This document shows positions 3,045 through 26,469 of a DNA stretch of 64,000 nucleotides, piece by piece. Position 1 is the first letter of the stretch. Each line of letters begins with the position of its first letter. The position numbers were made by a program, and so were the translations under genes. The DNA comes from Acaryochloris sp. CCMEE 5410 (GTDB taxonomy: Bacteria > Cyanobacteriota > Cyanobacteriia > Thermosynechococcales > Thermosynechococcaceae), in the NCBI RefSeq assembly GCF_000238775.2, contig NZ_AFEJ02000005.1, positions 248,001 to 312,000 of the forward strand, read 5' to 3'. The notes under the pieces were generated by a model, which worked only from the letters and a program-made list of their open reading frames with translations, made no database searches and was not told where the DNA came from.

Positions 3045-3115
3045 AGACAAAAGATGTGCTCTTAGAACATCGCAGAGCGATCCAATAACTGTTGAGTGAA
3101 GGGAGTCAAACTATT

Positions 3116-3625
3116 GTGGATGGCAAACCTCATCCCAGTGGAGATCAGCGTTTTAGGGTGCTAGAGGCAACGATGAAACGTCATCAATATCAGCCCAATT
3201 CACTGATTGAAGTTTTGCATAAGGCTCAGGAATTGTTCGGATATTTAGAACGCGACATCCTATTACACATTGCCCACAGTTTAAAGTTACCCCCTAGTCA
3301 AGTCTATGGTGTAGCCACCTTCTATCACTTTTTCTCGCTAACACCTTCTGGACGCCATACCTGTGTGGTTTGTATGGGAACGGCATGTTTTGTCAAAGGG
3401 GCTGCATCACTCCTGTCAACAGTGGAACAGATCGCTCACATTCAAGCTGGGGAAACTACTCAAGATGGAGGCTTGTCACTCAGCACTGCTCGTTGCTTGG
3501 GGGCCTGTGGGAGTGCTCCTGCTGTGGTGTTGGATGGTCAAGTGGTTGGCTATCAAACCTCAGAAAACTTAGGTCAGCAAGTCACGCAAATGATGGACCA
3601 TCCTCAATCTAAGGTCGCAACATAA
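3116..3625 (+). CDS. hoxE: HoxE, [2Fe-2S] subunit of the bidirectional NAD-linked hydrogenase
   Basis: NuoE-like thioredoxin-fold subunit, 169 residues from the GTG chosen here. The [2Fe-2S] ligands are visible as C-x4-C (CMGTAC) and C-x3-C (CLGAC). The frame is open from a TTG at 3092, but GGGAG sits about 11 bases before the GTG at 3116 and nothing suitable precedes the TTG. HoxE joins HoxF and HoxU in the diaphorase module that exchanges electrons with NAD(H) or ferredoxin/flavodoxin. The stop is directly followed by the hoxF ATG, so translation is tightly coupled. Confidence 0.9.
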   Translation: MDGKPHPSGDQRFRVLEATMKRHQYQPNSLIEVLHKAQELFGYLERDILLHIAHSLKLPPSQVYGVATFYHFFSLTPSGRHTCVVCMGTACFVKGAASLLSTVEQIAHIQAGETTQDGGLSLSTARCLGACGSAPAVVLDGQVVGYQTSENLGQQVTQMMDHPQSKVAT

Positions 3626-5281
3626 ATGGATTTACAAGAGCTACAAACCCTTGCTGAGCGAGAACAAGAGATTCTCGATGCGCCTTGCATCCGCTGCTGT
3701 ACGGTGGGGGGCTGTTTATCTGCTAATGCCTTGGCAGTAAAAGAACAAATTGAAGTTGAGATCGCAACTCAAGACCTCAACCCTCCTATGCAAGTTCGGG
3801 GGGTGGGCTGCATGGGACTGTGTAGCCGAGGTCCCCTAGTCCGACTAGACCCCGCAGGCATTCTCTACGATCAAGTAACCCCCGAAGACGCCCCTGAACT
3901 GGTCCACGCCTGCCATAAAACCCTCCAACCCCATCTGCCTAAAGCCTTATCAAATAGTTCTCCGCTCCAACCCTCCACTTATCAGCCCCGACATCACCCT
4001 TTCTTCACCCTGCAACACCCCATCGTCCTCGAAAACAGTGGTCATATTGACCCTAAGGAAATCAAGGATTATATGGCCCAAAAAGGCTATCTAGCCCTTT
4101 ACCAAGCCCTTTACGATATGACCCCCAGTGATGTAATTGATCAGATTACTCAAAGTGGTCTTCGAGGGCGAGGCGGCGGCGGATACCCCACAGGCTTGAA
4201 ATGGTCAACAGTCGCCAAAATGCCCCCTGGACAAAAGTATGTGATTTGCAATGGTGATGAAGGTGACCCGGGTGCCTTTATGGATCGCAGTGTCTTAGAA
4301 AGTGATCCCCATCGGGTGTTAGAGGGGATGGCAATTGCAGCCTACGCTGTCGGTGCCAACCAAGGCTACATCTATATTCGAGGTGAGTATCCCCTCGCCA
4401 TCAATCACCTCGAAACGGCCCTGCGTCAAGCTCGCAAGCAAGGTTTACTCGGCAGTCAAATTTTTGAGTCTCCCTTTGACTTTCGGATCGATATCCGTAT
4501 TGGGGCGGGGGCCTTTGTTTGTGGCGAGGAAACAGCCCTAATGGCCTCCATCGAAGGGAAGCGTGGATTACCTCACCCTCGACCACCTTACCCTGCTGAA
4601 TCTGGACTCTGGGGTTGTCCAACATTGATTAATAATGTGGAAACTTTTGCCAATATCGCTCCGATTATTCGCAATGGGGCTGAATGGTTTGTTGGGATTG
4701 GTACAGACAAGAGCAAAGGAACCAAAGTGTTTTCCTTAGCGGGCAAGATCCAAAATACCGGATTGATTGAAGTCCCCATGGGTACCTCCCTGCGCCAAAT
4801 TGTTGAACAGATGGGCGGGGGTGTCCTTGATGGATCGGCTAAAGCAGTGCAAACGGGTGGCCCCTCAGGGGGATGTATTCCTGCCCATGCCTTTGATACA
4901 CCCGTAGATTATGAATCTCTGACCCGTTTGGGGTCCATTATGGGGTCCGGTGGCATGATTGTCATGGATCAGGCCACCAATATGGTGGATGTCGCTCGTT
5001 TCTTTATGGAATTTTGCATGGAAGAGTCCTGTGGTAAGTGTGTTCCCTGTAGAGCAGGAACGGTTCAGCTTTACCAGTTACTCACAAAAATCTGTGATGG
5101 GAAAGCAAGAAAAGAGGATTTAGAGTCTTTAAACCAACTTTGCGAAATGGTCAAGGATACTAGCCTATGTGGCCTTGGAAAATCTGCCCCCAATCCTATT
5201 CTTAGTACCCTACGTTTTTTCAAAGATGAGTACTTAACGCTGATGCATAATGAGGGTTCTGGCGATTATCACCCCCCATAA
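3626..5281 (+). CDS. hoxF: HoxF, FMN/NAD(H)-binding diaphorase subunit
   Basis: 551 residues, family-typical length. The N-terminal 110 residues are the thioredoxin-like [2Fe-2S] part (CIRCC, CMGLC). The NuoF-like core follows: [13 protein letters not shown] at 178-190 (NADH site) and [13 protein letters not shown] at 209-221 (FMN site). The C-terminal [4Fe-4S] motif [13 protein letters not shown] is near 468-480, with a later Cys in SLCGLG. It oxidises NADH or reduces NAD+ for the hydrogenase. Starts on the base after the hoxE stop. Confidence 0.95.
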
Positions 5282-5405: not shown

Positions 5406-6371
5406 ATGAGCATGCAAAATCCTGTTGAACCAAGCCGCTTCCCTCATCCCCCAGTAAAGGTATGGGGGCGAGGCGTTAGGCTGACTTTGCTGACCACTCT
5501 TTGTAGTCTCTTCACCCTAGCTAACCCTCAGCTTGTTTCCGCAGAAACGGTCCTTGAAAAAATAGAACGTACCGGCACAGTAACCGCTGGAACGAACAAG
5601 AATACCCTTCCCTTTGCCTTCCAAGATGAGCAAGGGCAATTCCAGGGGTACTCGATTGAAATGCTGAAACAGATACAGGCCCAATTATCGAAAAAACTTG
5701 GTAAAGAGATTAATCTCGAACTTGTTGCGCTGACCCCCAACGAACGAATTCCTAAATTAGTCGCAGGGGAAGTAGACATTGTCTGTGATGCGAGCAGCTA
5801 TACCTGGGAGCGGGACAAGGATATAGACTTTTCCGTCAGCTATGGTTTGACAGGCACTCGCTTGTTGATTAAGCAAGGGGAAAAGGCATGGGAACCTGAG
5901 ATGTTGGTGAATCAGAAAATAGCTGCTGTGGCGGGCACAACGAATGAGATTGCGATTCGTCGAGCGCAGCCCCAAGCCCAAATCATCGTTCTCCCAGATC
6001 ATACTCAGGGTTACAAAGCGCTGGAGCAGGGAACAGTTGATGCATTTGCAGCAGACGGCATTTTACTCGAAGGTTGGCTACAAACCAGCCAGAACCCTGA
6101 AGACTTCACTGTTGTCGGGTATTTCTCAAGAGAAGGTATTGCCTGCATGGTGCCTGAGAATAATTCTAAATTTGTTGATCAAGTGAATTACTCACTCGTG
6201 CGTTTTATGGAGGGTTACTTAAAGGGTAAAGAACCCTATGTCAAAACGTTTGATCGTTGGTTTGGCCCTGAGGCTAAAGTCCCTCTCACTCAAGACCTGA
6301 GATCTTTAGTCCTAGAAACCATGCAGCTAGTGATTGATTTCAAAGAAGAAATTCCTGAAAGCGATCTTTAA
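5406..6371 (+). CDS. Periplasmic solute-binding protein, family 3 (amino-acid ABC type)
   Basis: 321 residues. An Arg-rich start and hydrophobic stretch lead to a likely signal-peptidase site after VSA (Ala46), so the protein is probably periplasmic. The mature part opens ETVLEKIERTGTVTAGTN and has the SBP_bac_3 layout, as in PBPb-type amino-acid binders. No permease or ATPase is in the window, so it is either an orphan binder or serves a transporter elsewhere. It separates hoxF from hoxU, an unusual place. An in-frame ATG at 5412 is an alternative start. Ligand unknown. Confidence 0.85.
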   Translation: MSMQNPVEPSRFPHPPVKVWGRGVRLTLLTTLCSLFTLANPQLVSAETVLEKIERTGTVTAGTNKNTLPFAFQDEQGQFQGYSIEMLKQIQAQLSKKLGKEINLELVALTPNERIPKLVAGEVDIVCDASSYTWERDKDIDFSVSYGLTGTRLLIKQGEKAWEPEMLVNQKIAAVAGTTNEIAIRRAQPQAQIIVLPDHTQGYKALEQGTVDAFAADGILLEGWLQTSQNPEDFTVVGYFSREGIACMVPENNSKFVDQVNYSLVRFMEGYLKGKEPYVKTFDRWFGPEAKVPLTQDLRSLVLETMQLVIDFKEEIPESDL

Positions 6372-6669: not shown

Positions 6670-6861
6670 ATGGCAACATTCAAGGATAAATCTCTATCCA
6701 TCCAATCCTTAAGCAAAACGGTTCGACGCTTCCTGAACTATATCGCTCAACCGATTCTCCGTATCTTTAGTCCCTCCCATGATGACTATCCAAAGGTGGG
6801 CGTCCAACCCTTTGAAGGTGATCCAGCTGATCCAAATCTAAACCAGGAAGGATCTTGGTAA
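6670..6861 (+). CDS. Small conserved-looking hypothetical protein (63 aa)
   Basis: 63 residues, no membrane segment. Basic, amphipathic N-terminal half ([19 protein letters not shown]), then an acidic tail with [15 protein letters not shown]. That tail resembles short proteins I recall from cyanobacteria, but I cannot name a family. GAGGG lies about 9 bases before the ATG, a shared promoter box lies upstream, and hoxU starts 40 bases downstream. It may be a hydrogenase-linked small protein or a chance neighbour; function not assigned. Confidence 0.6.
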
Positions 6862-6901: not shown

Positions 6902-7621
6902 ATGGCTGTAAAGACCCTCAAGATTGACGATCAATTGATCAGTGCTCGGGGAGATGAAACAATCCTTGAGGCCGCCGCCGCATCAGGGATTCATATTCCG
7001 ACGCTATGCAACTTGCAGGGTGTTTCCTTGTGGGGAGCCTGTCGACTCTGTCTAGTCGAGGTTAGTGGAAGTTCGAAGCTAGTGGCCGCCTGTGTCACAC
7101 CAGTAGCAGAGGGGATGGTCGTTCAAACCCAAACCAAACGGCTTAAACATTATCGGCGCATGATCGTGGAGCTGCTCTTTGCGGAAGGAAATCATATCTG
7201 TTCAGTATGTGTTTCCAATCACCACTGCGAATTGCAGGATCTTGCTATTGAGATGGGGATTGATCATGTGCGCTTTACCTATCAATTCCCAGATCGCTCT
7301 GTTGATATTTCCCATCCTCAATTTGGCGTTGATCATAATCGCTGTGTTTTATGTACTCGTTGTATTCGAGTTTGTGATGAGATTGAAGGGGCTCATACCT
7401 GGGATATGGCAGGTCGAGGTCGGAATTCCCGAGTGATCACAGATTTGAACCAGCCTTGGGGGGAAGCCGAGAGCTGTACCGCTTGTGGAAAGTGTGTCAA
7501 TGCCTGTCCCACAGGAGCCATCTTTCGTCGTGGTTCAACGGTTGCGGAGATGGAGCACGATCGGAGCCAACTTGAATTTATTTCTACTGCGAGAACGAGG
7601 CGAGAATGGGTGCAAAAGTGA
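6902..7621 (+). CDS. hoxU: HoxU, iron-sulfur subunit linking diaphorase to hydrogenase
   Basis: 239 residues. N-terminal plant-type [2Fe-2S] ferredoxin domain with C36, C47, C50, C64. A His/Cys cluster region follows ([12 protein letters not shown]), then two [4Fe-4S] binding segments ([11 protein letters not shown] and [12 protein letters not shown]). This is the NuoG-N-like electron wire between HoxEF and HoxY. ATG at 6902 follows AAGG-containing sequence. About 120 bases separate it from hoxY. Confidence 0.95.
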
Positions 7622-7741
7622 GGGATAAATTCCAGACAGTGCAAGGAAATCAGTTTTGAGGTTGGAATAGTGAGTTTGAATGCATCTCGTGAAGGTGTTC
7701 GAACTTAGAAGTGCACAACTATTTTGGGTTACGGAGGTAGG

Positions 7742-8287
7742 ATGGCAAAACTGAAGTTAGCGACTGTTTGGCTAGGCGGATGCTCAGGATGCCATATGTC
7801 TTTCCTAGACCTTGACGAGTGGTTATTTGAGTTGGCCCACCAAGTCGATCTGGTCTACAGCCCTTTTATGGATGCCAAGCAGTATCCACAAGAAGTGGAT
7901 GTGGCACTCGTCGAAGGCGCAATAGCCAATACCGATCATTGGGAGATGATTCATCAGGTTCGTGATTGCACTCAATACCTGATTGCCTTTGGGGATTGTG
8001 CTGTTACGGGGAATGTCACCGCCTTACGTAATATTTTGGGTACTGCGGAGGGGGTACTTGAGCGGTCTTACATAAACTTGGCTGATCTGGTGCCTCAGAT
8101 TCCTGCAGAGGAAGCGATTGTCCCCCCTTTATTGGATTGGGTTAAACCCGTACATACCGTTGTTCCCGTCGATCTCTATTTACCGGGTTGCCCACCATCA
8201 CCTTCTCGAATCAAATTTGTATTAGAAGCGCTACTACAGGGGAAGAGGCCTCAACTCGAGGGTCGAGATCAAATTAAATTCGGGTGA
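7742..8287 (+). CDS. hoxY: HoxY, small subunit of the bidirectional [NiFe] hydrogenase
   Basis: 181 residues. The frame is open from a TTG at 7724, but the ATG at 7742 has GGAGG just upstream and gives the family start MAKLKLATVWLGGCSGC. The four ligands of the proximal [4Fe-4S] cluster are visible: C14, C17, the Cys in FGDCAVTGN and the Cys in LPGCPPS. It passes electrons between the HoxH active site and HoxU. Followed by a CBS-CP12 gene after 73 bases. Confidence 0.95.
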   Translation: MAKLKLATVWLGGCSGCHMSFLDLDEWLFELAHQVDLVYSPFMDAKQYPQEVDVALVEGAIANTDHWEMIHQVRDCTQYLIAFGDCAVTGNVTALRNILGTAEGVLERSYINLADLVPQIPAEEAIVPPLLDWVKPVHTVVPVDLYLPGCPPSPSRIKFVLEALLQGKRPQLEGRDQIKFG

Positions 8288-8360: not shown

Positions 8361-8906
8361 ATGCTTAAAGTTAGAGACATTATGACCCAAGAGGTGATTG
8401 CGATTCAGGATACTGCAACAGTGGCACAAGCCATTGCTCTGATGCAATACCATAAAGTCCGCTCCCTCATTATCGAGCACCCTGAAGGTCAAACCGCTTA
8501 CGGGATCATCACTGAGCGAGATATTGTTTACCGAGTCATGGCTGTTGGCAAAGATCCCCATGAAATTGGCGTTCAAGAGCTTGTCCGCGAACCCTGTATT
8601 ACAGCCCATCCTGATCTCACTGTGGAAGAAATGGCTCAATTGTTTGCAGCAGCAGGCATTCAGAGAGCGCCAGTAATTGATGGACAGCAGCTTTTAGGCA
8701 TCATTTCCGTCACTGACTTAGTGATGAAAACGGATGGAAAGCAGAACTATCAAGCCGATTGGCTCGCGTTGCAAGTTGAAAATGCGTTAAAGCATGCCCG
8801 GATTATTTGTGGTGATCCGCAAACCCAGATTTCAAAAGAATGCTCTGTAGCCTGGGATGTGGTTGAAGCTTTTGAAGACCAAGCTGCCTTAAACGGAGCT
8901 ATTTAG
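8361..8906 (+). CDS. CBS-CP12 fusion protein, short form
   Basis: 181 residues from the ATG preceded by AAGGAG at 8348; an in-frame GTG at 8337 is less likely. Residues 1-130 form two CBS domains (opening LKVRDIMTQEV), which usually bind adenosine nucleotides. Residues about 138-175 look like CP12: a Cys pair C150/C161 followed by VAWDVVEAFEDQAA, matching the AWD-VEE core. The second CP12 Cys pair, which mediates GAPDH binding, is absent. CP12 controls the Calvin-cycle enzymes PRK and GAPDH. Placement between hoxY and hoxH suggests a role tied to hydrogenase or redox control (inference). Confidence 0.82.
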   Translation: MLKVRDIMTQEVIAIQDTATVAQAIALMQYHKVRSLIIEHPEGQTAYGIITERDIVYRVMAVGKDPHEIGVQELVREPCITAHPDLTVEEMAQLFAAAGIQRAPVIDGQQLLGIISVTDLVMKTDGKQNYQADWLALQVENALKHARIICGDPQTQISKECSVAWDVVEAFEDQAALNGAI

Positions 8907-8952
8907 TCCTTCAGAACAGGCTACTTTATCACTTTCAGTGTAGGTACCTCAG

Positions 8953-10380
8953 ATGCACACTAAATCATCGAGACAATATTTTAGACAAGTGCTGTTGTTT
9001 CTAATGGCCTTGGTCATTGCCCCATTGCTATTAGCGGTTTCTGCGGTTGGAGCCCCCAATTTCGTGACGCAAGATCAGATCACCGTGGGGGCTACAGAGG
9101 TCATTCAAGGTAACTATTATGCAACTGGGGACCGTATAACGGTTGACGGGACCTTAAAAGATAATCTGTTTGCAGCAGGAGACACCATTCAACTATCGGG
9201 CACCGTTGAGAAGGATGTTTACTTAGCGGGTGATGAAATAACGATTGATGGCACTGTTAAAGGCGATGCTATTCTGGCCGGCGCTTTGGTTGCCCTCAAT
9301 GGGTCTGTTGAAGGCGATTTAATCGCCGCAGGGCAAGCCGTGGTGGTGAACGGAACGGTTCAAGACGACGTGCGGATAGCAGGAGAGGCACTGCTTCTCA
9401 AAAATCAGGCTCGGGTGAAAGATGACATGATCGCCGCAGGGCTGAGCCTGGAAAGTCAACCCCAAACGTCCATCGGTGGCACTCTCACGGTTGCGAGTGG
9501 TCAAGCACTACTGGCAGGAACGGTTGATCAGGATGTTGTGGGGGGTATGGGAGGACTAACCTTAGAGGGGACAGTGGGTCAAGATGTGGCCGTTACCGTC
9601 GGTGATAACCAGACTTGGAAACCTATATTCGGACCTAGCCCTCGCCTTAAGATTCCTGATGTGCCGGCAGGATTAACCCTCACAGATTCGGCCCAAGTCA
9701 AAGGTCGGTTGACCTACAAATCACCAACTACTGCCTCCCTAAAAGATGGATCACAAGTGACAGGTAAAATCACGCATCAACCGATTCCAGAATGGGAACC
9801 GACGCCAGTCAAGCCGACGAATATCGTGCTAGATCAACTGCAGCGCTTGCTGACGATTGGGTTAGTGGGATGTGCCATGCTTTGGGCATTTCCAAAGTGG
9901 ACAGAAGGATTAACGCAGAATATTCAGACTCGACCGTTGAGAACGTTGGGTTGGGGCATTGTGACCAGTGTGTTGGTGGGAGTAGCAAGTGTTGTGATCG
10001 CAGTTCTGACCATCCTTGCATTTATTGTGCTTATCTTGACCCTCCAAGGATTAGCCTGGCCCATTCTGGGGGTCGGAACCCTCGCTAATCTGGCCCTATG
10101 GGTCGGTATTGGCAGCTTCGTGAGTTTGATTGCCCCCGTATTAATCAGCAACCTAGGTGGACGCTGGCTCTGCAGCCAATTCAATTTGAATAAGACCGCG
10201 AACCGATTTATCCCATTCCTGATGGGGGTAGTGGTTCTGATGTTGATTACCGCTATTCCCCTGATCGGCGGAATCATCAGCATTGTCATTATTTTCTTGA
10301 GCTTAGGTGCTCTCTGGAATTGGGGAAGGTCACGGTGGGTTAAGCCCCCCTTGCAAGCTCAGGAGGCACTAGTGGGTTGA
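8953..10380 (+). CDS. Bactofilin-like repeat protein with C-terminal membrane domain
   Basis: 475 residues. An N-terminal hydrophobic signal or anchor is followed by repeated beta-helix-like units, about 50-220, of the form ITVDGTLKDNLFAAGDTI, as in polymer-forming cytoskeletal (bactofilin) proteins. Several hydrophobic helices follow, about 295-455, so the C-terminal part is a multi-spanning membrane domain. The repeats are probably outside the cytoplasm. The role could be a membrane-bound scaffold; a link to the hydrogenase is inferred only from position between two CBS-CP12 genes. No catalytic motif seen. Confidence 0.75.
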   Translation: MHTKSSRQYFRQVLLFLMALVIAPLLLAVSAVGAPNFVTQDQITVGATEVIQGNYYATGDRITVDGTLKDNLFAAGDTIQLSGTVEKDVYLAGDEITIDGTVKGDAILAGALVALNGSVEGDLIAAGQAVVVNGTVQDDVRIAGEALLLKNQARVKDDMIAAGLSLESQPQTSIGGTLTVASGQALLAGTVDQDVVGGMGGLTLEGTVGQDVAVTVGDNQTWKPIFGPSPRLKIPDVPAGLTLTDSAQVKGRLTYKSPTTASLKDGSQVTGKITHQPIPEWEPTPVKPTNIVLDQLQRLLTIGLVGCAMLWAFPKWTEGLTQNIQTRPLRTLGWGIVTSVLVGVASVVIAVLTILAFIVLILTLQGLAWPILGVGTLANLALWVGIGSFVSLIAPVLISNLGGRWLCSQFNLNKTANRFIPFLMGVVVLMLITAIPLIGGIISIVIIFLSLGALWNWGRSRWVKPPLQAQEALVG

Positions 10381-10420
10381 GTGGAGATAGGTTCTGGCAT
10401 AACCGATGGGAGAAATCGCA

Positions 10421-11047
10421 ATGATGAAAGTTGCAGACATTATGACGACAGAAGTCATCAAAATTCGGAATTCGGCGAAGGTTGCTGAGGCCGTCCGATT
10501 GATGCGACGACATGGAATTCATGCCCTCATTGTTGATCGGAACCATGAGCAAGATGCTTACGGAATTGTGACCGCCTTCGATATCGTTGCGAAGGTAACG
10601 GCTTTTGGTCGTGATCCACGGCAGGTGAGAGTCTATGAAATTATGACGAAACCTTGTTTGGTACTCAATCCGGAACTCGGGGTCGAATATGCCGCAAGAT
10701 TATTGACCACTACCGGTATACATGCCGCACCCATTATCCAGTGGAGTCTGCTGGGTATTCTCTCAATCTCTGACATTCTCGATCAAGGGGATTTCTTGGA
10801 GAATCCCTTGGAGGTGGAGCTTGCTCAAAAAACACAGCAATTAATTGCGGACGCTCATGCAATTTGTAAGCAAAAGGGCACTAACTCCAAAGCCTGTAGA
10901 CAAGCTTGGCAAGACGTTGATGCAGTCCAAGCGGAAGCGGCTCATCAACGGGCCGAAAAGCTCGAAAAAACAGCTTTTGAAGCGTTTTGTGAGGAGTACC
11001 CAGAAGCCTTCAAAGATCGAGAGTATGATGCCTGGTGTAGTGGATAG
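10421..11047 (+). CDS. CBS-CP12 fusion protein, full form
   Basis: 208 residues from the ATG at 10421, which has GGGAGA about 7 bases upstream; the ATG at 10406 lacks this. Two CBS domains (MMKVADIMTTEV to about 125) are followed by a complete CP12 domain. First Cys pair is C149/C159, core is AWQDVDAVQAEAAHQRA, and second pair is C190/C206 around YPEAFKDREYDAW. Complete CP12 forms redox-switchable disulfides and clamps GAPDH and PRK. Ends 37 bases before hoxH. Together with the short form it makes a pair inside the hydrogenase operon. Confidence 0.88.
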   Translation: MMKVADIMTTEVIKIRNSAKVAEAVRLMRRHGIHALIVDRNHEQDAYGIVTAFDIVAKVTAFGRDPRQVRVYEIMTKPCLVLNPELGVEYAARLLTTTGIHAAPIIQWSLLGILSISDILDQGDFLENPLEVELAQKTQQLIADAHAICKQKGTNSKACRQAWQDVDAVQAEAAHQRAEKLEKTAFEAFCEEYPEAFKDREYDAWCSG

Positions 11048-11084: not shown

Positions 11085-12569
11085 ATGCCTCAGAGAATCA
11101 TCATTGATCCAGTCACTCGGATTGAAGGCCATGCCAAAATCTCGATTTACTTGGATGACGCAGGTGAAGTTACGGATGCTCGATTTCATGTGACGGAGTT
11201 TCGTGGATTTGAGAAGTTTTGCGAAGGCCGACCCTTTTGGGAGATGCCGGGGATTACCCCGCGCATCTGTGGGATTTGTCCAGTCAGCCACCTACTCGCG
11301 TCAGCGAAAGCTGGAGACCAGATTCTTGCCGTTCACATTCCTCCAGCGGCTGAGAAATTGCGCCGCTTAATGAACTTAGGACAGATTATTCAGTCCCATG
11401 CCTTGAGTTTTTTCCATCTGAGTAGTCCCGATCTACTGTTGGGGTGGGAGAGCGATCCAGCCCAGCGAAATGTGTTTGGTCTGATGGCTGCAGAGCCGGA
11501 TCTGGCCCGCAGCGGTATTAGGTTGCGCCAGTTTGGTCAGGAAGTGATTCAGCATTTAGGTGGGCAGAAAATTCACCCGGCTTGGGCTGTCCCCGGAGGC
11601 GTCCGATCGGCTCTAACCGACCAGGGACGTGAACAAATCCGAGCGGGGTTGCTAGAGGTACGATCAACGGCCCTTACAACGCTGAGTCGGTTCAAAGACT
11701 TGTTAGAAGACCATGCCAGTGAGGCTCGAATATTTGGGAATTTCCCCAGCTTATTTATGGGGTTAATCAACCCAAATGGACTCTGGGAACATTACCAGGG
11801 CTGTTTACGGTTTGTGGATAGTGTCGGTAATATCATTGCGGATCATCTTGATCCGAGCCAATTCCAGTCCTTTATTGGCGAAGCGGTTCAGACTGATTCT
11901 TATTTGAAGTCTCCCTACTATCGTCCCTTGGGCTATCCTGATCAGTCTCCAGGACTGTGCCGTTTACAAAATGGCATGTATCGGGTGGGGCCTTTAGCCC
12001 GACTCAACGTTTGCGATCGCATGGGCACGCCCTTAGCCGACCAGGAATTACAAGAATTCCGCCAGCGGGGCAATGGGACCGTTACCTCTTCCTTCTTTTA
12101 CCATTACGCTCGCTTAATTGAGATTTTGGCTTGTATAGAACGCATTGAGCAGAAATTAGAAGATCCAGAACTCTGCCAACCTCCCCTCAGAGCCCAGGCC
12201 GATGTCAATCAATTAGAGGGGGTTGGGGTGAGTGAAGCACCACGGGGGACGCTGTTTCATCACTATCAAGTGGATACAACGGGGTTACTCCAATCCGTAA
12301 ATCTGATCATCGCCACGGGACAAAATAATCTGGCCATGAACCGCACCGTTGCTCAGATTGCTCGTCACTACCTCCATGGACCCGATATTCCTGAGTCGAT
12401 GCTCAATCGAGTCGAAGCCGGCATTAGGGCCTTTGATCCTTGTTTAAGTTGCTCGACTCATGCGGCAGGCCAGATGCCACTTCATATCCAGTGCAAATCA
12501 GTAAACAGTGGTCAAGTCCTTAGTGAGGTATGGAGAACATCAACGGGAGAATTTCAAGTTAAAGGTTGA
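11085..12569 (+). CDS. hoxH: HoxH, catalytic large subunit of the bidirectional [NiFe] hydrogenase
   Basis: 494 residues. The N-terminal nickel motif [10 protein letters not shown] carries C62 and C65; the C-terminal motif [10 protein letters not shown] carries C453 and C456. Together these four Cys bind the NiFe(CN)2CO site. A maturation protease is expected to cut after His459, removing a 35-residue tail. The enzyme makes H2 from NAD(P)H or ferredoxin electrons under fermentation, or oxidises H2. It converges with hypC. Confidence 0.96.
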
Positions 12570-12602: not shown

Positions 12603-12839
12603 TCAGGCAGGCGGGCTGATATTGTCCAAAAGTTGTAAGGTCCGCTCAGCTTCTTCAACATCAATAACGTTCAAAGCAAACCCCACATGGACAATGACAT
12701 AGTCACCCACATCCGCATGGGGAACATAAGCAAGACTGACCTCCTTTAGAACGCCTGCAAAACTCACTTTCCCCATCCGTAACAGCGGGTCATCATGATC
12801 CAAGATGTTGATAATCTGGCCGGGTACCGCTAAGCACAT
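12603..12839 (-). CDS. hypC: HypC, hydrogenase maturation chaperone
   Basis: 78 residues starting MCLAVPGQI, with the essential Cys2 that carries the Fe(CN)2CO unit together with HypD and delivers it to the large subunit. Family-typical length. Its start overlaps the 3' end of hypF by 10 bases, showing it is last in the hyp operon. GAGGC lies before the ATG. Confidence 0.95.
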   Translation of the reverse strand: MCLAVPGQIINILDHDDPLLRMGKVSFAGVLKEVSLAYVPHADVGDYVIVHVGFALNVIDVEEAERTLQLLDNISPPA

Positions 12840-15307
12840 GGTGAATCTGCCTCGACAAAGGGCTGTTGTCTGTTAAACGTCTCATTGACCTTGGGAAAGC
12901 GTCCAGCATAGTGGCGATGGGCAGCCATGATTTGTCCAAGGGCAATCCCTCCATCATTGGTAGGGACTTGCTGATGCCAGTAGGGGCGGAACTGGCTTTC
13001 CTGCAATCTGTGGATGGCTCTTTCACTCAGATATTGATTTTGAAAACATCCGCCCGTGAGCACGATATATGGCTCGCCGATTTGATAGGCGATTTGGACA
13101 ATGATTTCAACCAAAGTATTGTGAAACTTAGTGGAGATCCAGCTAGTATCAACGCCCTGATCAATATCGGCCAGAATGGCCATCAACATCGGTTCCCAAT
13201 CCACCACGAAGGGCAATGAAGCCGAGAGATGGAAAGGATAGTCGTCTTCTGTTGCAGCCCTACCCAAGATAGACTCTAAGGCCATCGCTGCTTGCCCCTC
13301 AAAATGGGTGTTTTGCATCAGGTTCGTGAGGGATGCGATCGCATCAAAGAATCGCCCCACACTTGAAGTTAGAGGGGTATTCAGAGACCGATCCAGCATT
13401 GCCTGCAATACCTGGGCAGACGGCTGGGAAAAAGCCTTCAAGGGCGCTAAGCCTTCCCACTCAAAAATCTTGCCCCCAAAGCAGGTATAGAGCAGCCCCA
13501 TCGCCGTTCGTCTGGGCTCACGAGCGGCTTGGTCACCACCGGGTAAGAAAAAGGGACGCCAGTAGCCGACCCGCTCAAACCCAGATGAAGTGATTCGCAG
13601 AAATTCTCCGCCCCAGACGGTCCCATCCAATCCATAACCCGCTCCATCCCAAGCAATTCCCAGAACAGGAGCTTCTAAATGATGTTCTGCCATGCAGGCC
13701 AACACATGAGCATAGTGATGTTGCACAGATAATAAGGGAACTTGCCATTGCTGAGCCAAAGCTTGGGCAGCTTGGGTGGAAGCATAATCTGGATGAGCAT
13801 CACAGGCGACCAGGTTAGGTTGGCACTCGTAGAGCTGAAGTAACGCCTGAAGGGTTTGCTGAAAACGGTCGATGGAGGGCACGGTGTCCAGATCCCCCAG
13901 ATGTTGACTCATAAAAACGTGATCGTCTAAGGAGAGGGCAATGGTGTTCTTTAGATGAGAACCCACCGCGAGGATCGTAGGGCGTTTTGGGGGTCGGGCA
14001 GATTGTGGCGTTGCCGATAAGCCTTTGGGGCTGGAATGATGAGACGGAAAAGTGACGGATAGGGGGAGCGGCGCATATCCTCGGGCACGGCGGCGGAGTT
14101 GAGTTTGCCCATTGATAACTTGGACAACTGAGTCATCTATAGGGTGCAAAATAGGACGATTATGGATCAGAAACAGATCGGCGATAGATTTGAGGTCATC
14201 CAAGGCTTTTTCCACATTGAAGCTGATGGGTGCACCGTTGAGATTGCCACTGGTAGCAACGATGGGGAAGTCGAGGTCGGCCATCAGGAGATGGTGAATC
14301 GGAGTGTAAGGTAGCAGTACGCCCAGGTGAGAGCAACCTGGGGCGACTTCATCGGCAATTGGGTCTGCCAGTGAGAGGTGTCTTCGCTGAAGTAAAACAA
14401 TGGGGGCCTTGGGCGATTGCAGCAGCTCCGCCTCCAGTTCAGATACTTCGCAGGTGTGTTTGACCCGTTCCAAAGATGGGTACATCAAGGCGAAGGGTTT
14501 ATTGGGGCGCTTCTTGCGCGTTCTTAGCCGCTTTACTGCATCCGAATTGCGAGCATCGACTAACAAATGGAAGCCCCCCACTCCTTTTACCGCGACGATC
14601 AGACCCTGACGAAGGGCTACAGCAGCTAACCCGATAGCCCCAAGTCCCTCCGTCTTTTCCGCTATCCCCTCCTGGTTTTGTTGAACGGCCTGTCCCTGAA
14701 GCTGATTGCTAACCCAACGTTCCTTCTGCCAATGCCATACTTCAACGATGGGGCCACAGGTAGGACAGGCAATCGGTTGAGCATGAAATCGGCGAGATAA
14801 GGGATTCTGATACTCTGACAAGCAATTGGGACACATGTGAAAACTCGCCATTGCGGTATTACCGCGATCGTAGGGTAAGGCTCGAATAATGCTATACCTC
14901 GGCCCACAGTGCGTACAGTTGATAAACGGGTAGCGGTATCTGCGATCGCTAGGGTTGAACAGCTCACGGAGACAATCGGCACACGTAGCGACATCCGGCA
15001 GCAAGAGGGTGGTTTTAGGGCCGTTTTGGCTGGGACGAATCGTAAAGGTGTGCTCACCCAAAGGTGGAATATACTTTTGCTTGATAGTCTCAATTTCAGC
15101 GAGAACAGGGGGATTGGCTTGGAGTTGAGCGAGAAACTGGTTCAACCGTTCAGGGCCACCTTCCACTTCAATCACCACCCCCTGGGTATCATTCGACACC
15201 CAACCCCTGAGTTTCAATCGGGTCGCTAAACGGAAGATAAATGGCCGAAACCCAACGCCTTGAACGGCTCCTTGAATCGTTAGTTGGAGGCGCTGATGGG
15301 TCATCAT
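12830..15307 (-). CDS. hypF: HypF, carbamoyltransferase for hydrogenase cyanide-ligand synthesis
   Basis: 825 residues. Acylphosphatase domain at 1-90 (GAVQGVGFRPFIFRLA), then C-x2-C zinc fingers about 110-185 (CADC, CTHC, CPNC, CPTC), a YrdC-like carbamoyl-adenylate domain about 215-400, and a Kae1-like domain after 450 (VACDAHPDY, HHYAH). HypF makes the thiocarbamate on HypE that becomes cyanide. The ATG at 15307 is chosen over the TTG at 15310. No HypD is in the window and the only HypE-like protein lacks the acceptor Cys, so partners must lie elsewhere. Confidence 0.95.
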   Translation of the reverse strand: MMTHQRLQLTIQGAVQGVGFRPFIFRLATRLKLRGWVSNDTQGVVIEVEGGPERLNQFLAQLQANPPVLAEIETIKQKYIPPLGEHTFTIRPSQNGPKTTLLLPDVATCADCLRELFNPSDRRYRYPFINCTHCGPRYSIIRALPYDRGNTAMASFHMCPNCLSEYQNPLSRRFHAQPIACPTCGPIVEVWHWQKERWVSNQLQGQAVQQNQEGIAEKTEGLGAIGLAAVALRQGLIVAVKGVGGFHLLVDARNSDAVKRLRTRKKRPNKPFALMYPSLERVKHTCEVSELEAELLQSPKAPIVLLQRRHLSLADPIADEVAPGCSHLGVLLPYTPIHHLLMADLDFPIVATSGNLNGAPISFNVEKALDDLKSIADLFLIHNRPILHPIDDSVVQVINGQTQLRRRARGYAPLPLSVTFPSHHSSPKGLSATPQSARPPKRPTILAVGSHLKNTIALSLDDHVFMSQHLGDLDTVPSIDRFQQTLQALLQLYECQPNLVACDAHPDYASTQAAQALAQQWQVPLLSVQHHYAHVLACMAEHHLEAPVLGIAWDGAGYGLDGTVWGGEFLRITSSGFERVGYWRPFFLPGGDQAAREPRRTAMGLLYTCFGGKIFEWEGLAPLKAFSQPSAQVLQAMLDRSLNTPLTSSVGRFFDAIASLTNLMQNTHFEGQAAMALESILGRAATEDDYPFHLSASLPFVVDWEPMLMAILADIDQGVDTSWISTKFHNTLVEIIVQIAYQIGEPYIVLTGGCFQNQYLSERAIHRLQESQFRPYWHQQVPTNDGGIALGQIMAAHRHYAGRFPKVNETFNRQQPFVEADSPCA

Positions 15308-15358
15308 CAAATATCCATTCCTCGATCATTCATAACCAGGCTGCTTTGATTGAGGAGG

Positions 15359-15841
15359 CTAAAATTTATAGCCAATTTGGCGAAGAAAATCTTGACGCTC
15401 CAATATGTCTTCTTCTCCTTCCACTCCTTTGGGAGCGAAGCCATCGATTACACCTAATACCCCAGCGCCTTGGTCCGTCTTGGCCAGGATAACTTCTACA
15501 GGATTAGCCGTCGCACAGTAAATGGTGCAGACTTCTGGGGACTGCTGAATCGCATTCAAAACGCTAATGGGAAAAGCATCTTGCATCAATAGAATAAAAC
15601 TATGACCCGCGGCGATTTTCTTAGCATTACTGACAGCGATATCTTGGAGTGAAGGGTCGTTGCCCGCAAACCGGATCAGACAAGGCCCTGATGCTTCGCA
15701 GAACGCTAGACCAAATTTTGCCTGAGGGCAAGTTCCGACCATAATTTCATATAAATCCTCCACTGTCTTGATGAAATGGCTTTGGCCCAAGATTAAATTT
15801 GTATGTTCAGGGACATCCAGGACAACGGTGGTCACTTCCAT
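15359..15841 (-). CDS. Adenosine-specific kinase-like protein (DUF355 family)
   Basis: 160 residues from the ATG at 15841, which has GAGGCG about 8 bases upstream; the frame is open a further 9 codons. The sequence matches the adenosine-specific kinase/DUF355 family throughout: LVIRF-type strand LIRFAGND, then HSFILLMQDAFPISVLNAI and the C-terminal glycine-rich stretch AGVLGVIDGFAPKGVE. The family is best known from archaea and thermophiles, with a proposed adenosine/AMP role. It sits between DUF1614 and hypF, likely co-transcribed. Involvement in hydrogenase maturation is unproven. Confidence 0.8.
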   Translation of the reverse strand: MEVTTVVLDVPEHTNLILGQSHFIKTVEDLYEIMVGTCPQAKFGLAFCEASGPCLIRFAGNDPSLQDIAVSNAKKIAAGHSFILLMQDAFPISVLNAIQQSPEVCTIYCATANPVEVILAKTDQGAGVLGVIDGFAPKGVEGEEDILERQDFLRQIGYKF

Positions 15842-15872
15842 AGTGCTTCGCCTCACAAAAACCGTCATATCT

Positions 15873-21652: not shown

Positions 21653-24600
21653 CTAGTCACTTTTATTAGCAGAAGCTTCGGTCTCTGTATCCTGTGATTT
21701 TTCTTGCAGGATATTCTGTAACATTCTGAGCAAGGCATCCGAAGAAAAAGGTTTCTGAAGAAAGGCTTTAACACACTGTCCAAGGGATAAAGCAAATGTC
21801 TCATCAACTAAGAGGCCACTGGTCACGATGACTTTAAGCTGAGGATTGATTTTTCGCAGTGTTTGAATGGTCGTTTCTCCACTGAGTGTTGGCATCTGCA
21901 TATCCATCAATACAACATCAATCTCTGTATGATGTTGAGCATACTGAGCAATGGCATCAATACCATCATCTGCGACCATGACCTGATAGTTGTGCTTTAC
22001 CAACATACTCTGGGCCACTTCTCGAATCGGAGCTTCATCATCAACGACTAAAACAACCTCGCCCTGACCGTTAGGACACTCTAATTGTTCTTCCTCTACA
22101 CTGCTGACTGATTCAATAGCAGGGAGGTAGACTTTGAATTGAGTCCCTTGACCAACTTCACTGTAGACGGTGATATATCCATAATGGCTTTGAATAATCT
22201 TGTTGACCGTCGAGAGCCCCAATCCGGTTCCTCCCGCAGGCTCCTTGGTAGTAAAGAAGGGCTCGAAAATCTGTTCCTGTAGTTCAGGAGGAATTCCAAT
22301 TCCAGTATCTGTAACGGTGATCAAAATGTACGGTCCAGCTTGGGCGTTGAGAAAATCTGCTGCAAGGGCTTCATCTAGGGGAAAGTTCATTGCATGGATG
22401 GACAAAGAACCGCCCTCTGGCATAGCATCACGAGCATTGACGAGTAGATTCATAAAGACTTGATGTACCTGGGTCGCATCGGCATGAATCGACCAAAGAT
22501 CGTCAGGGATATGCGTAGATACTTCAATCGATTTAGGAAATGTTTTTAGGGTAAAGTCTCTCAGCTCACTCAGTAAGGGTTTGATGTAAAGAATTGCGCG
22601 TTCACCATCTGCGCCCCTAGAAAATGAGAGCACCTGGGTAATCAGTTTTGACCCCCGTTGTGCACAGGTTTGTAAAATCTCAAACTGGTGCTGAATTTGT
22701 TCACTGGCATTGGGAAGTTGCAAAGGTAAAAGCTGGGCTACTCCATAGATAGGCGTCAGAATGTTATTAAGGTCATGAGCAATTCCGCTAGCAAGTGCCC
22801 CAATACTCTCCAATCGTTGAGCCCGTAAAAATTGTTTTTCGAGTTTTTTAGCTTGAGTGACATCGGTATTGACAATGAGTATGGCTTTGGGATTCCCTAA
22901 ACTATCTTTGACCAACGTCCATCGGCTCATCACCGTGATCGCATCCCCTGATTTAGTCACCTGTTGCTGTTCGCCTTGCCACTTTCCATGTTGCCTCACA
23001 TATTGTTCAATTTCTGCTGCTTTCTCGTCGGTTACTTCTAGTAACTGGCCAACTTCTTGACTAAGCGCTTCCTCCTGAGTCCAGCCATAAAGAGCAGATG
23101 CACCTTTGCTCCAGTATTGAATCCGACCATCAGGTCCCTGGACCAGAATGGCATCGGTGGCGACATTCAATAGCGCTGCTAGTTCTGAAATTTGTTCTTG
23201 TGATTGCTTGCGTTCTGTAATATCTGTCGCCACGCCATCCAATCGCAGGACTCTCTCTTCGGCATCTTTGATCACCCTGCCCCGATCTAATAGCCACCGA
23301 ATCGACCCATCCGGCCGGACAATGCGATATTCTACTTCTTGGCTACCCGTCTCCAGGATACGTTCAGAAAAACCGCTAACTTTTGCCCGATCATCGGGAT
23401 GCATAGCTTGTAACCAGAGTTGTGAATTATCTATAAATGCTGAAATAGGGCGTCCATATATCTCTTCAGCGGCTGGACTAAGGTACAACAACTCAAATGA
23501 ATCTGCCTTTACGGACCAAACGATATCTTGCAGGGATTCTAGAATATTGTTGAGACGCTGTTGACTTTCTTGGTGTGCAACTTCGGCCAGCTTACCTTCA
23601 GTGACATCAAAAATTACGCCATCTATATGGAGAGGTTGACCATTTTGAGCCGGAATAGGTTGTCCTTTTTCCCAAAAGTACCGAATTTGATCCTGTTTAT
23701 CCTGTATTCGATACTCCACTTGAAATGGCATCAGAGAAGAGACAGCCTCCTGTACGGTTGTAACCACTTGGGGCCGATCTTCTGGCACAATCATCGGATC
23801 AATGGAGCAAACTTCTCCGACTGAAAGGTCGATGGAATCATTACCTGTTAATGTTTTGCACTGATCATTCAGAAACACCATTCTATTGTGATCTTCAGGA
23901 AAGACCCGATAAACGATCCCTGGTAGATTTTCTGCCAATGTTCGATATTCTTGTTCGCTTTGTCTCAAAGTTTGATCGATTTGGTGCCGATCTAAGGCTT
24001 GCGCTAACAAATTGGCCACTGACTGGAGAAAGTCAATATCATTCTCATTAAATAGACGATGGTGGCCGGTATGAGCACCGATTACCCCGTACGTTTGATG
24101 TTGCCCTTGAAGAATGACACTCATCCCACTAACGACCTTATGATCCAGTAACAATGGCGGACCGCTAAATCGAGTTTCTGTCTCCAAGTTGTCAACAATG
24201 ACTGGCCTAGAACTCCGCAATGTATAACCAGCTTGGGACTCTTGCTCAGTCCCAATGATGGCCTGACCCACCAGTCCAGGTTGCCAACCCACCCCGGCCT
24301 TCAGCAATAACGATTCACCATCGGGACGTAACTGAAGTACTTTGCAATATTCCACCTCCAAAGTCTGAGAGACGACTCTGACAATTTCATTCATCAAACC
24401 ATCGATATCTCGACTTGCTAAGGCTAATGCCCCTAATTGAGCCACTGAAGTCTGTTGTCTGGCTCTCAAGGCTAAGGTCTGCTCGATTATTTTTTGCTTA
24501 GTGATATCACTGGCGCTTGCATAAATCTGTTGCTGCTGAAGGTATGGTGTGGCGGACCAGAGAAACCAGCGGTAGGAGCCATCATGGCAGCGATATCGAT

Positions 24601-26305
24601 TCTCAAAGGCAATAGTATTAGTGCCCATTGCCAACTGCTCTAATTCTCTGACAGTGGCATCCCGATCCTCGGGGTGAACAAAGTTAAGGAAAGGCTGAGC
24701 CAAGAGTTCTTTGATTGAATAGCCTAAAGTGCTAATAAAAGCAGGATTGACGGTTTTAAAGTAACCGTCAAAGCCCGCAATACAGTGCAGGTCCAAAGAA
24801 ACTGAAAGGAACCGATTACGGTCAGTTTCTGCGGTTTGGCGCTCAAGCTCTGCTGTGGTTTTCTGGGCCAGAATCGTCAGCACCTCTTCTATAAACGCCA
24901 GATCGTCAAGGGGCTGTCGGCATAAAACAACAATTAATCCCACTACTTGCTTAGCACTAGAGATGAGGGGAATCCCCAAATACCCTTCTATGCTTAAGTC
25001 CCTGAGCATCTGATCATGAGGAAAAACCGCTTGGACGCCCTGATGATACATACAGGATTGTTGTTCAATGACTTCCTCACAGGGAGTCCCAGCTAGAGCA
25101 TATTCAAAGTTGGATTGGAGCTGTCCTGCCTTTGCCACCGCAAGGGTGCGAATCGTTGCTTGGCCCTCTATATTGACAAGCTGACCAATATGAGCGAAAT
25201 CTGCAGGGAGTACTTGATTCAGATGTGTCACAAGGGATTGGAAGAAATCCTCACCAGTAGATGTTGCCAGACCTTTAGCCAGATGGTGTCGCATAAGATC
25301 TCGGCGCTCTAATTTCGATGTTCGATCTTGCACCAGCTGCTCCAGTTCTTGGTTGCGTTTTTGGAGTAGTTGATGATTTTGGGTCTCCAGTTGCGTGATT
25401 TGCTGCTGGAGTAGTTCCACGACCTCATAAATTTCAGCAGGGTCTACGGGTAGCAAGTTCCTCTGGGTGACAATGCCCCGCAAGGTTCCATGTCCATCAG
25501 CGACGACTAATCGACGGACTTTTTGCTGCTGCATTTTCTGATGGACGGTCCACAGGGAATCATCTGGAGTAACGAGGGAAAGAGGGGTACTCATCACCTC
25601 TTGTGCTTGAGTCTGGGCGAAATCCAGCTCCAATCGCTGAAATTGGACAATATCTCTTTCTGTAATAATCCCGATTGGGCAGTGATTTTCTGTGAGATCA
25701 TCGGCAGGTTCAACCATAACGATACAGCTCACTCCCTGCAGATTCATGCACTGGGTAATCTGCAACAGTGAGTTAGTAGGTAAAGCTTGAACCACATCTG
25801 GGGTCATTACCTCCCTTACCCGACGAATTTTAAGTAAATCAGACGGTTGCAGCAGATTCCGAATTCGGCGAGGGGTCAGTAGTCCTTTCACCTGTCCTTG
25901 TTGATCCAGCACAGGTAAATGACGAATGTGCTGTCGATTCATCCGCTCTAATGCGGTGAATACAGTTGAATGCCCATCATCAACCAACGTTACGACGGGT
26001 TGGGACATCACTGCTGCAGCGGTGAGTTCACCCAACGAGCGATTCTCAGCAATTAAGCGAACAATGTCGCGTTCAGTGAGAATACCAACCAGTTGAGTAT
26101 CTTCCTCAAACAGTACACAACCCGTTTGTTCGATTCCCAATTGGGGGAGAGTGGGCTGGTTAACCTCATCTGCCATCAAATGGCAATGAAGGGCGGACCG
26201 ACTCGTAAGACCAATGACTTCTGTTAATGGAGTATCAGGCGCAGCTATGAGGGGTTGCAAATCTAGGGCTGCTTCAAGTGGGAACGTCATGAATTGCTGC
26301 ATCAT
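21653..26305 (-). CDS. Giant CBS/GAF/PAS hybrid sensor histidine kinase
   Basis: 1550 residues from the ATG at 26305; the frame is open to a TTG at 26386, with another ATG at 26377, so the start is uncertain. Order: four CBS domains (about 10-300; repeated GILTERDIV/GIITERDIV), a coiled coil, a GAF domain, a PAS domain, a second GAF domain, three PAS domains, a HisKA domain with IAHDLNN near 1175, an HATPase (GGTGLGLSTV) and a C-terminal receiver with phospho-Asp in VLMDMQMP near 1467. No output DNA-binding domain. CBS and GAF suggest sensing of adenylates or other small ligands. It is the only sensor kinase in the window. Confidence 0.92.
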   Translation of the reverse strand: MMQQFMTFPLEAALDLQPLIAAPDTPLTEVIGLTSRSALHCHLMADEVNQPTLPQLGIEQTGCVLFEEDTQLVGILTERDIVRLIAENRSLGELTAAAVMSQPVVTLVDDGHSTVFTALERMNRQHIRHLPVLDQQGQVKGLLTPRRIRNLLQPSDLLKIRRVREVMTPDVVQALPTNSLLQITQCMNLQGVSCIVMVEPADDLTENHCPIGIITERDIVQFQRLELDFAQTQAQEVMSTPLSLVTPDDSLWTVHQKMQQQKVRRLVVADGHGTLRGIVTQRNLLPVDPAEIYEVVELLQQQITQLETQNHQLLQKRNQELEQLVQDRTSKLERRDLMRHHLAKGLATSTGEDFFQSLVTHLNQVLPADFAHIGQLVNIEGQATIRTLAVAKAGQLQSNFEYALAGTPCEEVIEQQSCMYHQGVQAVFPHDQMLRDLSIEGYLGIPLISSAKQVVGLIVVLCRQPLDDLAFIEEVLTILAQKTTAELERQTAETDRNRFLSVSLDLHCIAGFDGYFKTVNPAFISTLGYSIKELLAQPFLNFVHPEDRDATVRELEQLAMGTNTIAFENRYRCHDGSYRWFLWSATPYLQQQQIYASASDITKQKIIEQTLALRARQQTSVAQLGALALASRDIDGLMNEIVRVVSQTLEVEYCKVLQLRPDGESLLLKAGVGWQPGLVGQAIIGTEQESQAGYTLRSSRPVIVDNLETETRFSGPPLLLDHKVVSGMSVILQGQHQTYGVIGAHTGHHRLFNENDIDFLQSVANLLAQALDRHQIDQTLRQSEQEYRTLAENLPGIVYRVFPEDHNRMVFLNDQCKTLTGNDSIDLSVGEVCSIDPMIVPEDRPQVVTTVQEAVSSLMPFQVEYRIQDKQDQIRYFWEKGQPIPAQNGQPLHIDGVIFDVTEGKLAEVAHQESQQRLNNILESLQDIVWSVKADSFELLYLSPAAEEIYGRPISAFIDNSQLWLQAMHPDDRAKVSGFSERILETGSQEVEYRIVRPDGSIRWLLDRGRVIKDAEERVLRLDGVATDITERKQSQEQISELAALLNVATDAILVQGPDGRIQYWSKGASALYGWTQEEALSQEVGQLLEVTDEKAAEIEQYVRQHGKWQGEQQQVTKSGDAITVMSRWTLVKDSLGNPKAILIVNTDVTQAKKLEKQFLRAQRLESIGALASGIAHDLNNILTPIYGVAQLLPLQLPNASEQIQHQFEILQTCAQRGSKLITQVLSFSRGADGERAILYIKPLLSELRDFTLKTFPKSIEVSTHIPDDLWSIHADATQVHQVFMNLLVNARDAMPEGGSLSIHAMNFPLDEALAADFLNAQAGPYILITVTDTGIGIPPELQEQIFEPFFTTKEPAGGTGLGLSTVNKIIQSHYGYITVYSEVGQGTQFKVYLPAIESVSSVEEEQLECPNGQGEVVLVVDDEAPIREVAQSMLVKHNYQVMVADDGIDAIAQYAQHHTEIDVVLMDMQMPTLSGETTIQTLRKINPQLKVIVTSGLLVDETFALSLGQCVKAFLQKPFSSDALLRMLQNILQEKSQDTETEASANKSD

Positions 26306-26469
26306 CGAACCCACTTGCCCACAATTACTTTCATTTGATTGTAAATGCAGCTCGATTTTATTTTGCAAAAGAAGCATAAAACTCAATCAATGAGCGGTCT
26401 AACGTATCGTATTGCCCCATATTTGCGGGAGGCGGAATGACTCAATCTTGAGGGATTGAATATATTCTC

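Follow-up and report, generated by a model that had tools for sequence, protein, structure and literature searches.

In CP12 the AWD_VEEL motif contacts phosphoribulokinase (PRK). The C-terminal cysteine pair of the same protein, CxxxPxxxxC, contacts glyceraldehyde-3-phosphate dehydrogenase (GAPDH; PMC9406205). Here we describe two relatives in which a pair of CBS domains is joined to all or half of CP12, encoded between hoxY and hoxH, genes of the bidirectional Hox hydrogenase, in a 64,000-nucleotide stretch of Acaryochloris sp. CCMEE 5410 (contig NZ_AFEJ02000005.1, positions 248,001 to 312,000; hereafter the window). The full form is a complete CBS-CP12 protein with an extra C-terminal tail, WCSG; the short form carries only the first half of CP12. 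C1 to C4 denote the four CP12 cysteine positions, and labels beginning with L, G and f are our own for contigs, genomes and families. The new element is the tail, generalized as C[SAG]G, and its link to the presence of HoxH. We infer, at about even confidence, that both act as accessory or regulatory factors of the Hox hydrogenase, dedicated to this enzyme and sensing adenylates.

The CBS-CP12 protein of Microcystis aeruginosa (PDB 5NMU/5NPL/5NVD) shares with the window proteins the CBS pair and the CP12 hairpin, at 215 phmmer bits for the full form and 150 bits for the short form. However, it keeps AWDVVEELQ, C3 and C4 and ends in ECRIYD, whereas the full form reads AWQDVDAVQ, has no C4 and carries the added WCSG, and the short form stops after the hairpin. 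With canonical CP12 the window proteins have in common the CP12 Pfam domain, C1, C2 and the AW...V core; they differ in their fusion to a CBS pair and in that neither the C3-C4 pair nor AWD_VEEL is conserved. The CP12-N-CBS class (Stanley et al. 2013), known here from a review only, resembles them in its N-terminal Cys pair and CBS fusion, although the review passages describing it name neither a C-terminal WCSG tail nor a hydrogenase link. Finally, CBS-CP12 genes of Nostocales hox operons occupy the same position between hoxY and hoxH in ten loci among the 80 nearest relatives with named contigs (L070, L073, L074, L075, L077, L078, L080, L081, L082, L087), but they lack the C[SAG]G tail, have AWD_VEE and C3 in most cases, and were seen without a short partner in the ten loci. 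A 2018 PNAS paper on CBS-CP12 reportedly covers several gene neighbourhoods, which may include hox. Our literature searches did not turn up the tail, but they did not cover the primary CBS-CP12 papers (PNAS 2018, Plant Physiol 2013) and are no proof of novelty; they found no paper that combines CP12, hydrogenase, hox and the CBS domain.

We surveyed 388 Cyanobacteriia genomes, calling HoxH at E ≤ 1e-50 and CBS-CP12 at E ≤ 1e-35. HoxH was found in 128 genomes, its absence from a draft genome perhaps reflecting an assembly gap, and CBS-CP12 in 165. The tie of CBS-CP12 to the hydrogenase proposed in the preliminary description of this locus, which had only the letters to go on, is real and wide across the sampled genomes. 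Its emphasis on the hox context as the notable feature is weakened: at least 29 of the 128 HoxH genomes, from ten families and with the window included, have a CBS-CP12 gene no more than about 2 kb from hoxH (judged by eye; 13 of the 28 genomes other than the window's were checked in locus DNA). A hox context unique to the window was thus rejected, CBS-CP12 beside hoxH being common. By synteny alr0765 of Anabaena PCC 7120 is probably a CBS-CP12 gene. A published table already lists it among the hox genes, where it is called a hypothetical protein (PMC4915528).

The tail is a different matter. Among the matches listed, on which all counts of tailed proteins rest, a CBS-CP12 protein ending in C[SAG]G occurs in 32 of the 388 genomes (that of the window and 31 seen in locus DNA), under nine family codes. 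HoxH was found in 31 of these 32 genomes (G214 and G243 gave a partial match), whereas of the 133 genomes whose CBS-CP12 proteins are all untailed it was found in 56 (Fisher p 2e-9); it was found in 41 of the 223 without CBS-CP12. With family as stratum, the link holds across the 165 CBS-CP12 genomes (odds ratio 75, p 2e-9), and within the single family f13 the tail is present in 14 of 23 HoxH genomes versus 0 of 36 without HoxH (p 6e-8). A repeat survey of f13 (63 genomes, the tailed matches of G452 left uncounted) held only four that were new compared with the first sample and is hardly a replicate. In the one tailed genome without a HoxH match, G200 (88% complete), the tailed gene is open and is immediately preceded by a hoxY remnant that contains a stop. 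The 80 nearest relatives formed a second, named-contig set, which overlaps the sample in at least L011 and L057; here HoxH was found in all nine searched genomes with an intact tailed gene. Two further genomes of named organisms gave weak HoxH matches only: Richelia intracellularis (L068; 5.5e-16), where the tailed gene has an in-frame stop, and Cyanomargarita (L084; 2.5e-18), where the tail has decayed.

The tailed gene lies near hox or hyp genes, or a hox remnant, in 16 of the 32 genomes. It stands between hoxY and hoxH in the window, L118, L119, L126, L127, L132, L135, L141 and L145, at most about 8 kb from hyp genes in L138, L140, L142 and L143, divergent from hoxEF in L147, next to hoxW in L136 and next to a hoxY remnant in L137. 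That many families repeat such a position, either in the hoxY-hoxH interval or close to hyp genes, argues against the strongest rival to a dedicated role, in which the proteins would be operon passengers, general energy or redox sensors for the same dark, anoxic conditions that are co-expressed with the hydrogenase and make no physical contact with it. The persistence of the tail-HoxH link under stratification points the same way, as do open CBS genes adjoining hox remnants in three genomes without HoxH. The passenger explanation, which we consider doubtful yet deserving of serious weight, draws on the neighbours of the unlinked tailed genes (mostly named by eye, several on short contigs), which are Usp-like, FtsH-like, glycolytic-looking and others. 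The Usp-like gene is similar to the Usp of the window, and those that by eye look FtsH-like, phosphoenolpyruvate-synthase-like, pyruvate-kinase-like and Hcp-like could make up a low-oxygen or stress set. In Acaryochloris, moreover, the hox, glycogen phosphorylase and pyruvate:ferredoxin oxidoreductase genes are on the same plasmid (PMC8949462).

Two observations on these neighbourhoods may be recorded separately. Degraded hoxY, hoxE/hoxF and hoxY/hoxH remnants lie beside open tailed or short CBS genes in L137, L177 and L180 respectively; in these the hydrogenase has been lost and the CBS gene left behind. A hybrid-cluster (Prismane) protein gene sits between hoxF and hoxU in L032 (2488-4140), and a hybrid-cluster-like gene, named by eye, just upstream of an unlinked tailed CBS-CP12 gene in L033 (6281-7918).

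Two same-strand genes with paired CBS motifs and CP12-like ends, as first described, were confirmed between hoxY and hoxH. The full form has PF00571 in two stretches plus PF02672 (hmmscan), that is, the architecture of a CBS-CP12 fusion, and its CP12 part clearly passes the profile check over the whole length (83.6 bits, E 1.7e-23, positions 1-70 of 70). We number it from the start at 10421 (208 amino acids), the equivalent of the annotated start in Acaryochloris sp. 'Moss Beach'; 10406 (213 amino acids) is also possible. With that start the four cysteines once credited to it do exist as letters (C149, C159, C190 and C206), and C149/C159 form the N-terminal CP12 pair. The rest of that description did not stand, for when aligned to relatives the canonical fourth position is Asp and there is no CxxxPxxxxC pair, C206 sits in the extra tail ...EYDAWCSG, and at C190, the third Cys, two of the four copies from Acaryochloris (L006, L009) have Arg instead. 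With C4 missing and C3 unconserved even within Acaryochloris, a four-Cys CP12 with two disulfides was rejected, and the sequences allow no claim of a conserved C-terminal disulfide pair in the full form.

This is part of a wider pattern. Residues were counted in 113 full-length proteins of the tree set (38 tailed, of which 31 end in WCSG, and 75 untailed), as sequences and not as evolutionary events. Every tailed protein retains C1, C2 and the AW-core Trp (38/38), while C3 is Cys in 11/38 tailed versus 72/75 untailed proteins, the Asp of AWD_VEEL is present in 6/38 versus 70/75, and C4 is Cys in 0/38 versus 7/75. On a weakly resolved tree C3 changes 11 times, the Asp 9 times and the tail 7 times. 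Features associated with PRK and GAPDH are lost in most tailed proteins, as if the tail Cys had replaced C3, and we would read this as a hairpin retained for its structure in proteins whose contacts with PRK and GAPDH may have been given up.

These losses bear on a classical CP12-like action, in which PRK and GAPDH would be bound and inhibited in the dark, coupling Calvin-cycle shutdown to H2 metabolism. The preliminary description had favoured such a shutdown, which fits poorly with a full form whose core reads AWQDVDAV instead of AWD_VEEL and which has no C3-C4 pair, and with the missing Asp in 32 of the 38 tailed proteins; two stand-alone CP12 genes, recovered by six-frame search of the same genome, could do the job. 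In its favour are the CP12 profile match, the C1, C2 and AWDVVEAF that the short form retains, and the AWD kept in 18 of 20 untailed hox-linked proteins, mostly of Nostocales, for which a PRK role is conceivable because of it. AMP-bound Microcystis CBS-CP12 inhibits PRK activation by thioredoxins (PMC9406205), and CBS-CP12 is able to inhibit PRK (PMC9514657), but the same two sources report that CBS-CP12 does not form a ternary complex and describe one CBS-CP12 that failed to replace CP12 in vivo. On balance we find classical CP12 action quite improbable as the function of these proteins.

The short form has PF00571 in two stretches and a borderline, half-length PF02672. Its match to CP12 covers the first half of the profile (4-41 of 70) and straddles the cut-off of 22.7 bits, at 22.2 bits (E 2.4e-4) in hmmscan and 23.3 bits in the six-frame genome search. 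The core AWDVVEAF partly keeps AWD_VEEL, and the C-terminal Cys pair is absent. Related short proteins, taken as those above 205 bits with A6 (the next match, at 202.5 bits, is a full-length form), occur at 22 places in 20 genomes, and by these matches the short form is a member of a conserved family. In nine of the 20 genomes it lies within the hoxY-hoxH interval or just upstream of hoxH (G000, G195, G222, G349, G162, G141, G307, G196, G332); it adjoins hypB in G189 and degraded hox genes in G113 and G343, and at the remaining loci hox is not nearby in the contig pieces examined. HoxH was found in 14 of the 20 genomes and a tailed protein in 12. The first Cys pair noted in the preliminary description holds in Acaryochloris (C150/C161), although C1 is kept in only five of the 20 genomes in the copy examined (three Acaryochloris, G364 and G182), so a hairpin disulfide would not be general for the short family.

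A recent truncation of the neighbouring gene was considered as the origin of the short form and rejected: the tree places it with short forms of another family (support 99, with a long-branch warning), and the 46 bases before the next open reading frame (ORF) are too few for a remnant of the C-terminal half of CP12. Purifying selection also argues against it, since dN/dS among the four Acaryochloris copies ranges from 0.10-0.15 (short form) to 0.04-0.10 (full form), with 0.05-0.08 for hoxH, values that indicate that both genes are under such selection. A third CBS protein of the window genome (L004 1126-1575; G000:C1:1064442), beside a trxA-like gene, has the C-terminal end of CP12 only (profile 47-70), the half missing from the short hox-linked form.

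The motif G-h-x-[TS]-x-x-D is a CBS motif of the adenylate-binding type. It occurs twice in each window protein and in 118 of the 120 proteins of the tree set, bearing out the adenylate-type assignment made earlier, with binding itself a prediction. Structures were modelled as single chains. The model of the full form (mean predicted local distance difference test, pLDDT, 90; predicted template modelling score, pTM, 0.73) has a CBS pair, a long helical hairpin (129-151, 156-176) and a short helix, and its tail (201-207) falls below pLDDT 50. In a fold comparison it came closest to chains of the Microcystis CBS-CP12 hexamer (5npl, 5nmu, 5nvd; 52-54% identity); further CBS proteins followed, including adenylate-bound AcuB. 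For the short form the model is less sure (mean pLDDT 79, pTM 0.61), with both hairpin helices kept.

If the two proteins do serve the hydrogenase, the CBS pair would act as the sensor of the AMP/ADP/ATP state, and adenylate binding would set the oligomer built by the CP12 hairpins. In the full form the CP12 part would mainly be such an oligomer-building hairpin, as in hexameric Microcystis CBS-CP12, while the flexible Cys tail would offer a contact or thiol switch toward a hydrogenase subunit or maturation factor, acting as the CP12 tail does on GAPDH with a different partner. The module would have a second member in the short form, with its hairpin but no tail, perhaps as a partner in mixed oligomers. 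Nucleotide binding, oligomer, hydrogenase contact and redox role of the tail are all putative here. A bolder and tentative version, possible rather than probable in our judgement, is that the C[SAG]G-tailed proteins are a hydrogenase-dedicated branch in which the CP12 switch has been re-aimed from PRK and GAPDH to the NAD(P)-linked [NiFe] hydrogenase, with the tail Cys plugging into a Hox subunit or maturation factor, or bound to it by a mixed disulfide, under adenylate gating, and with the short CBS-CP12N protein as second subunit. H2 metabolism would then have its own CP12-type switch for redox state and energy charge, and CP12, the textbook switch of the Calvin cycle, would have been put to another use. 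In H2 biology the post-translational control of the bidirectional hydrogenase of cyanobacteria is an open question. A candidate regulator that combines CBS domains of the adenylate type with a defined thiol tail, and that is linked to HoxH across nine sampled families, offers a gene and a residue to test.

Several observations weigh against such a dedication to the hydrogenase. The tail changes state only about seven times, on a weakly resolved gene tree, and an independent-pairs test of tail against HoxH had only 3 supported pairs and no power, so much of the link may reflect one old clade with few origins. No tailed protein was found in 97 of the 128 HoxH genomes, and the tail is therefore not needed for a hydrogenase as such. 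HoxH is also present in 38 of 49 named genomes reached via untailed loci (one of which, G391, has a tailed gene as well) and so is common around CBS-CP12 relatives anyway. In L010 the tail Cys is lost though the genome has HoxH; in G166, likewise with HoxH, the tailed gene is split over two frames and is possibly broken. Half of the tailed genomes (16/32) had no hox or hyp gene near the tailed gene in the pieces examined, some of which end at contig ends. Six of the 20 short-form genomes gave no HoxH match (G370, G113, G364, G343, G311, G182), although G113 and G343 have remnants. The AWD kept by untailed hox-linked proteins belongs to the same side of the account.

The 97 HoxH genomes in which no tailed protein was found also speak against a maturation or metal-handling factor, whose Cys tail would aid the insertion of nickel or of the Fe ligands or the processing of HoxH by HoxW, and the proteins have no known metal-carrier fold. 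What recommends such a factor is position, namely the tailed genes near hyp genes or beside hoxW listed above, an untailed CBS-CP12 gene after hypB in three contigs (L041, L043, L051) and the short form before hypB in L174. In addition, CP12 binds copper, with an affinity that has been compared with those of nickel-binding chaperones (PMC7281370). We regard a maturation function as unlikely.

Features of the locus are collected in Table 1. The window shares synteny with a plasmid, pMB02, from Acaryochloris sp. 'Moss Beach', with 92% identity across 4.9 kb. Hox genes on Acaryochloris plasmids that are retained or lost jointly with a second ATPase have been described (PMC9324425, PMC8949462). 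The order on the + strand is hoxE, hoxF, a solute-binding-protein gene, a small ORF, hoxU, hoxY, the short CBS gene, a 475-aa ORF, the full CBS-CP12 gene and hoxH. Because the gaps from hoxY to hoxH are short (73, 46, 40 and 37 bases, with the full form starting at 10421), these genes likely form one operon. An Rfam scan of the window found nothing, and a promoter and terminator scan gave sites no more numerous than in shuffles.

Table 1. Coordinates of hox, CBS and hyp features in the window.
Feature	Positions	Strand	Remarks
hoxE	3092..3625	+	annotated in syntenic pMB02
hoxF	3626..5281	+	counterpart in pMB02
hoxU	6902..7621	+	counterpart in pMB02
hoxY	7724..8287	+	
short CBS-CP12N protein, 181 aa	8361..8906	+	two CBS motifs, first CP12 half (C150, C161, AWDVVEAF), then stop
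475-aa ORF between both CBS genes	8953..10380	+	Pfam: no match
full CBS-CP12 protein, 208 aa	10421..11047	+	two CBS motifs, CP12 hairpin, WCSG tail
codons for C-terminal WCSG tail plus stop	11033..11047	+	
hoxH	11085..12569	+	
hypC and hypF, opposite strand	12603..15310	-	

The 475-aa ORF was seen only in Acaryochloris among the loci examined; in Moss Beach two ORFs correspond to it, and the annotation of the first is 'polymer-forming cytoskeletal protein'. The hox operon also holds a GrrP-type orphan solute-binding protein (5406-6371; TIGR04262, 195.4 bits against a cut-off of 190) and a 63-aa ORF without a Pfam match (6670-6861). In one f13 genome a stand-alone CP12 without CBS (96.3 bits) lies between hoxY and hoxH (L156 8274-8501).

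Within the hyp cluster, the window carries a PF04008 'adenosine specific kinase' gene (15362-15868, - strand; 254.6 bits). Similar genes were found by tblastn elsewhere (L029 7363-7854, L062 5631-6107, L138, L142, L143, L171), both in several other hyp clusters and, in two Crocosphaera contigs, directly next to the tailed CBS-CP12 gene; any tie to hydrogenase maturation or to the sensing of adenylates would be speculative. Beyond the hyp cluster, on its downstream side (21653-26386, - strand), is a large PAS-type histidine kinase/response regulator with, by eye, CBS-like repeats at its start, the Moss Beach counterpart of which is annotated as a PAS domain S-box protein.

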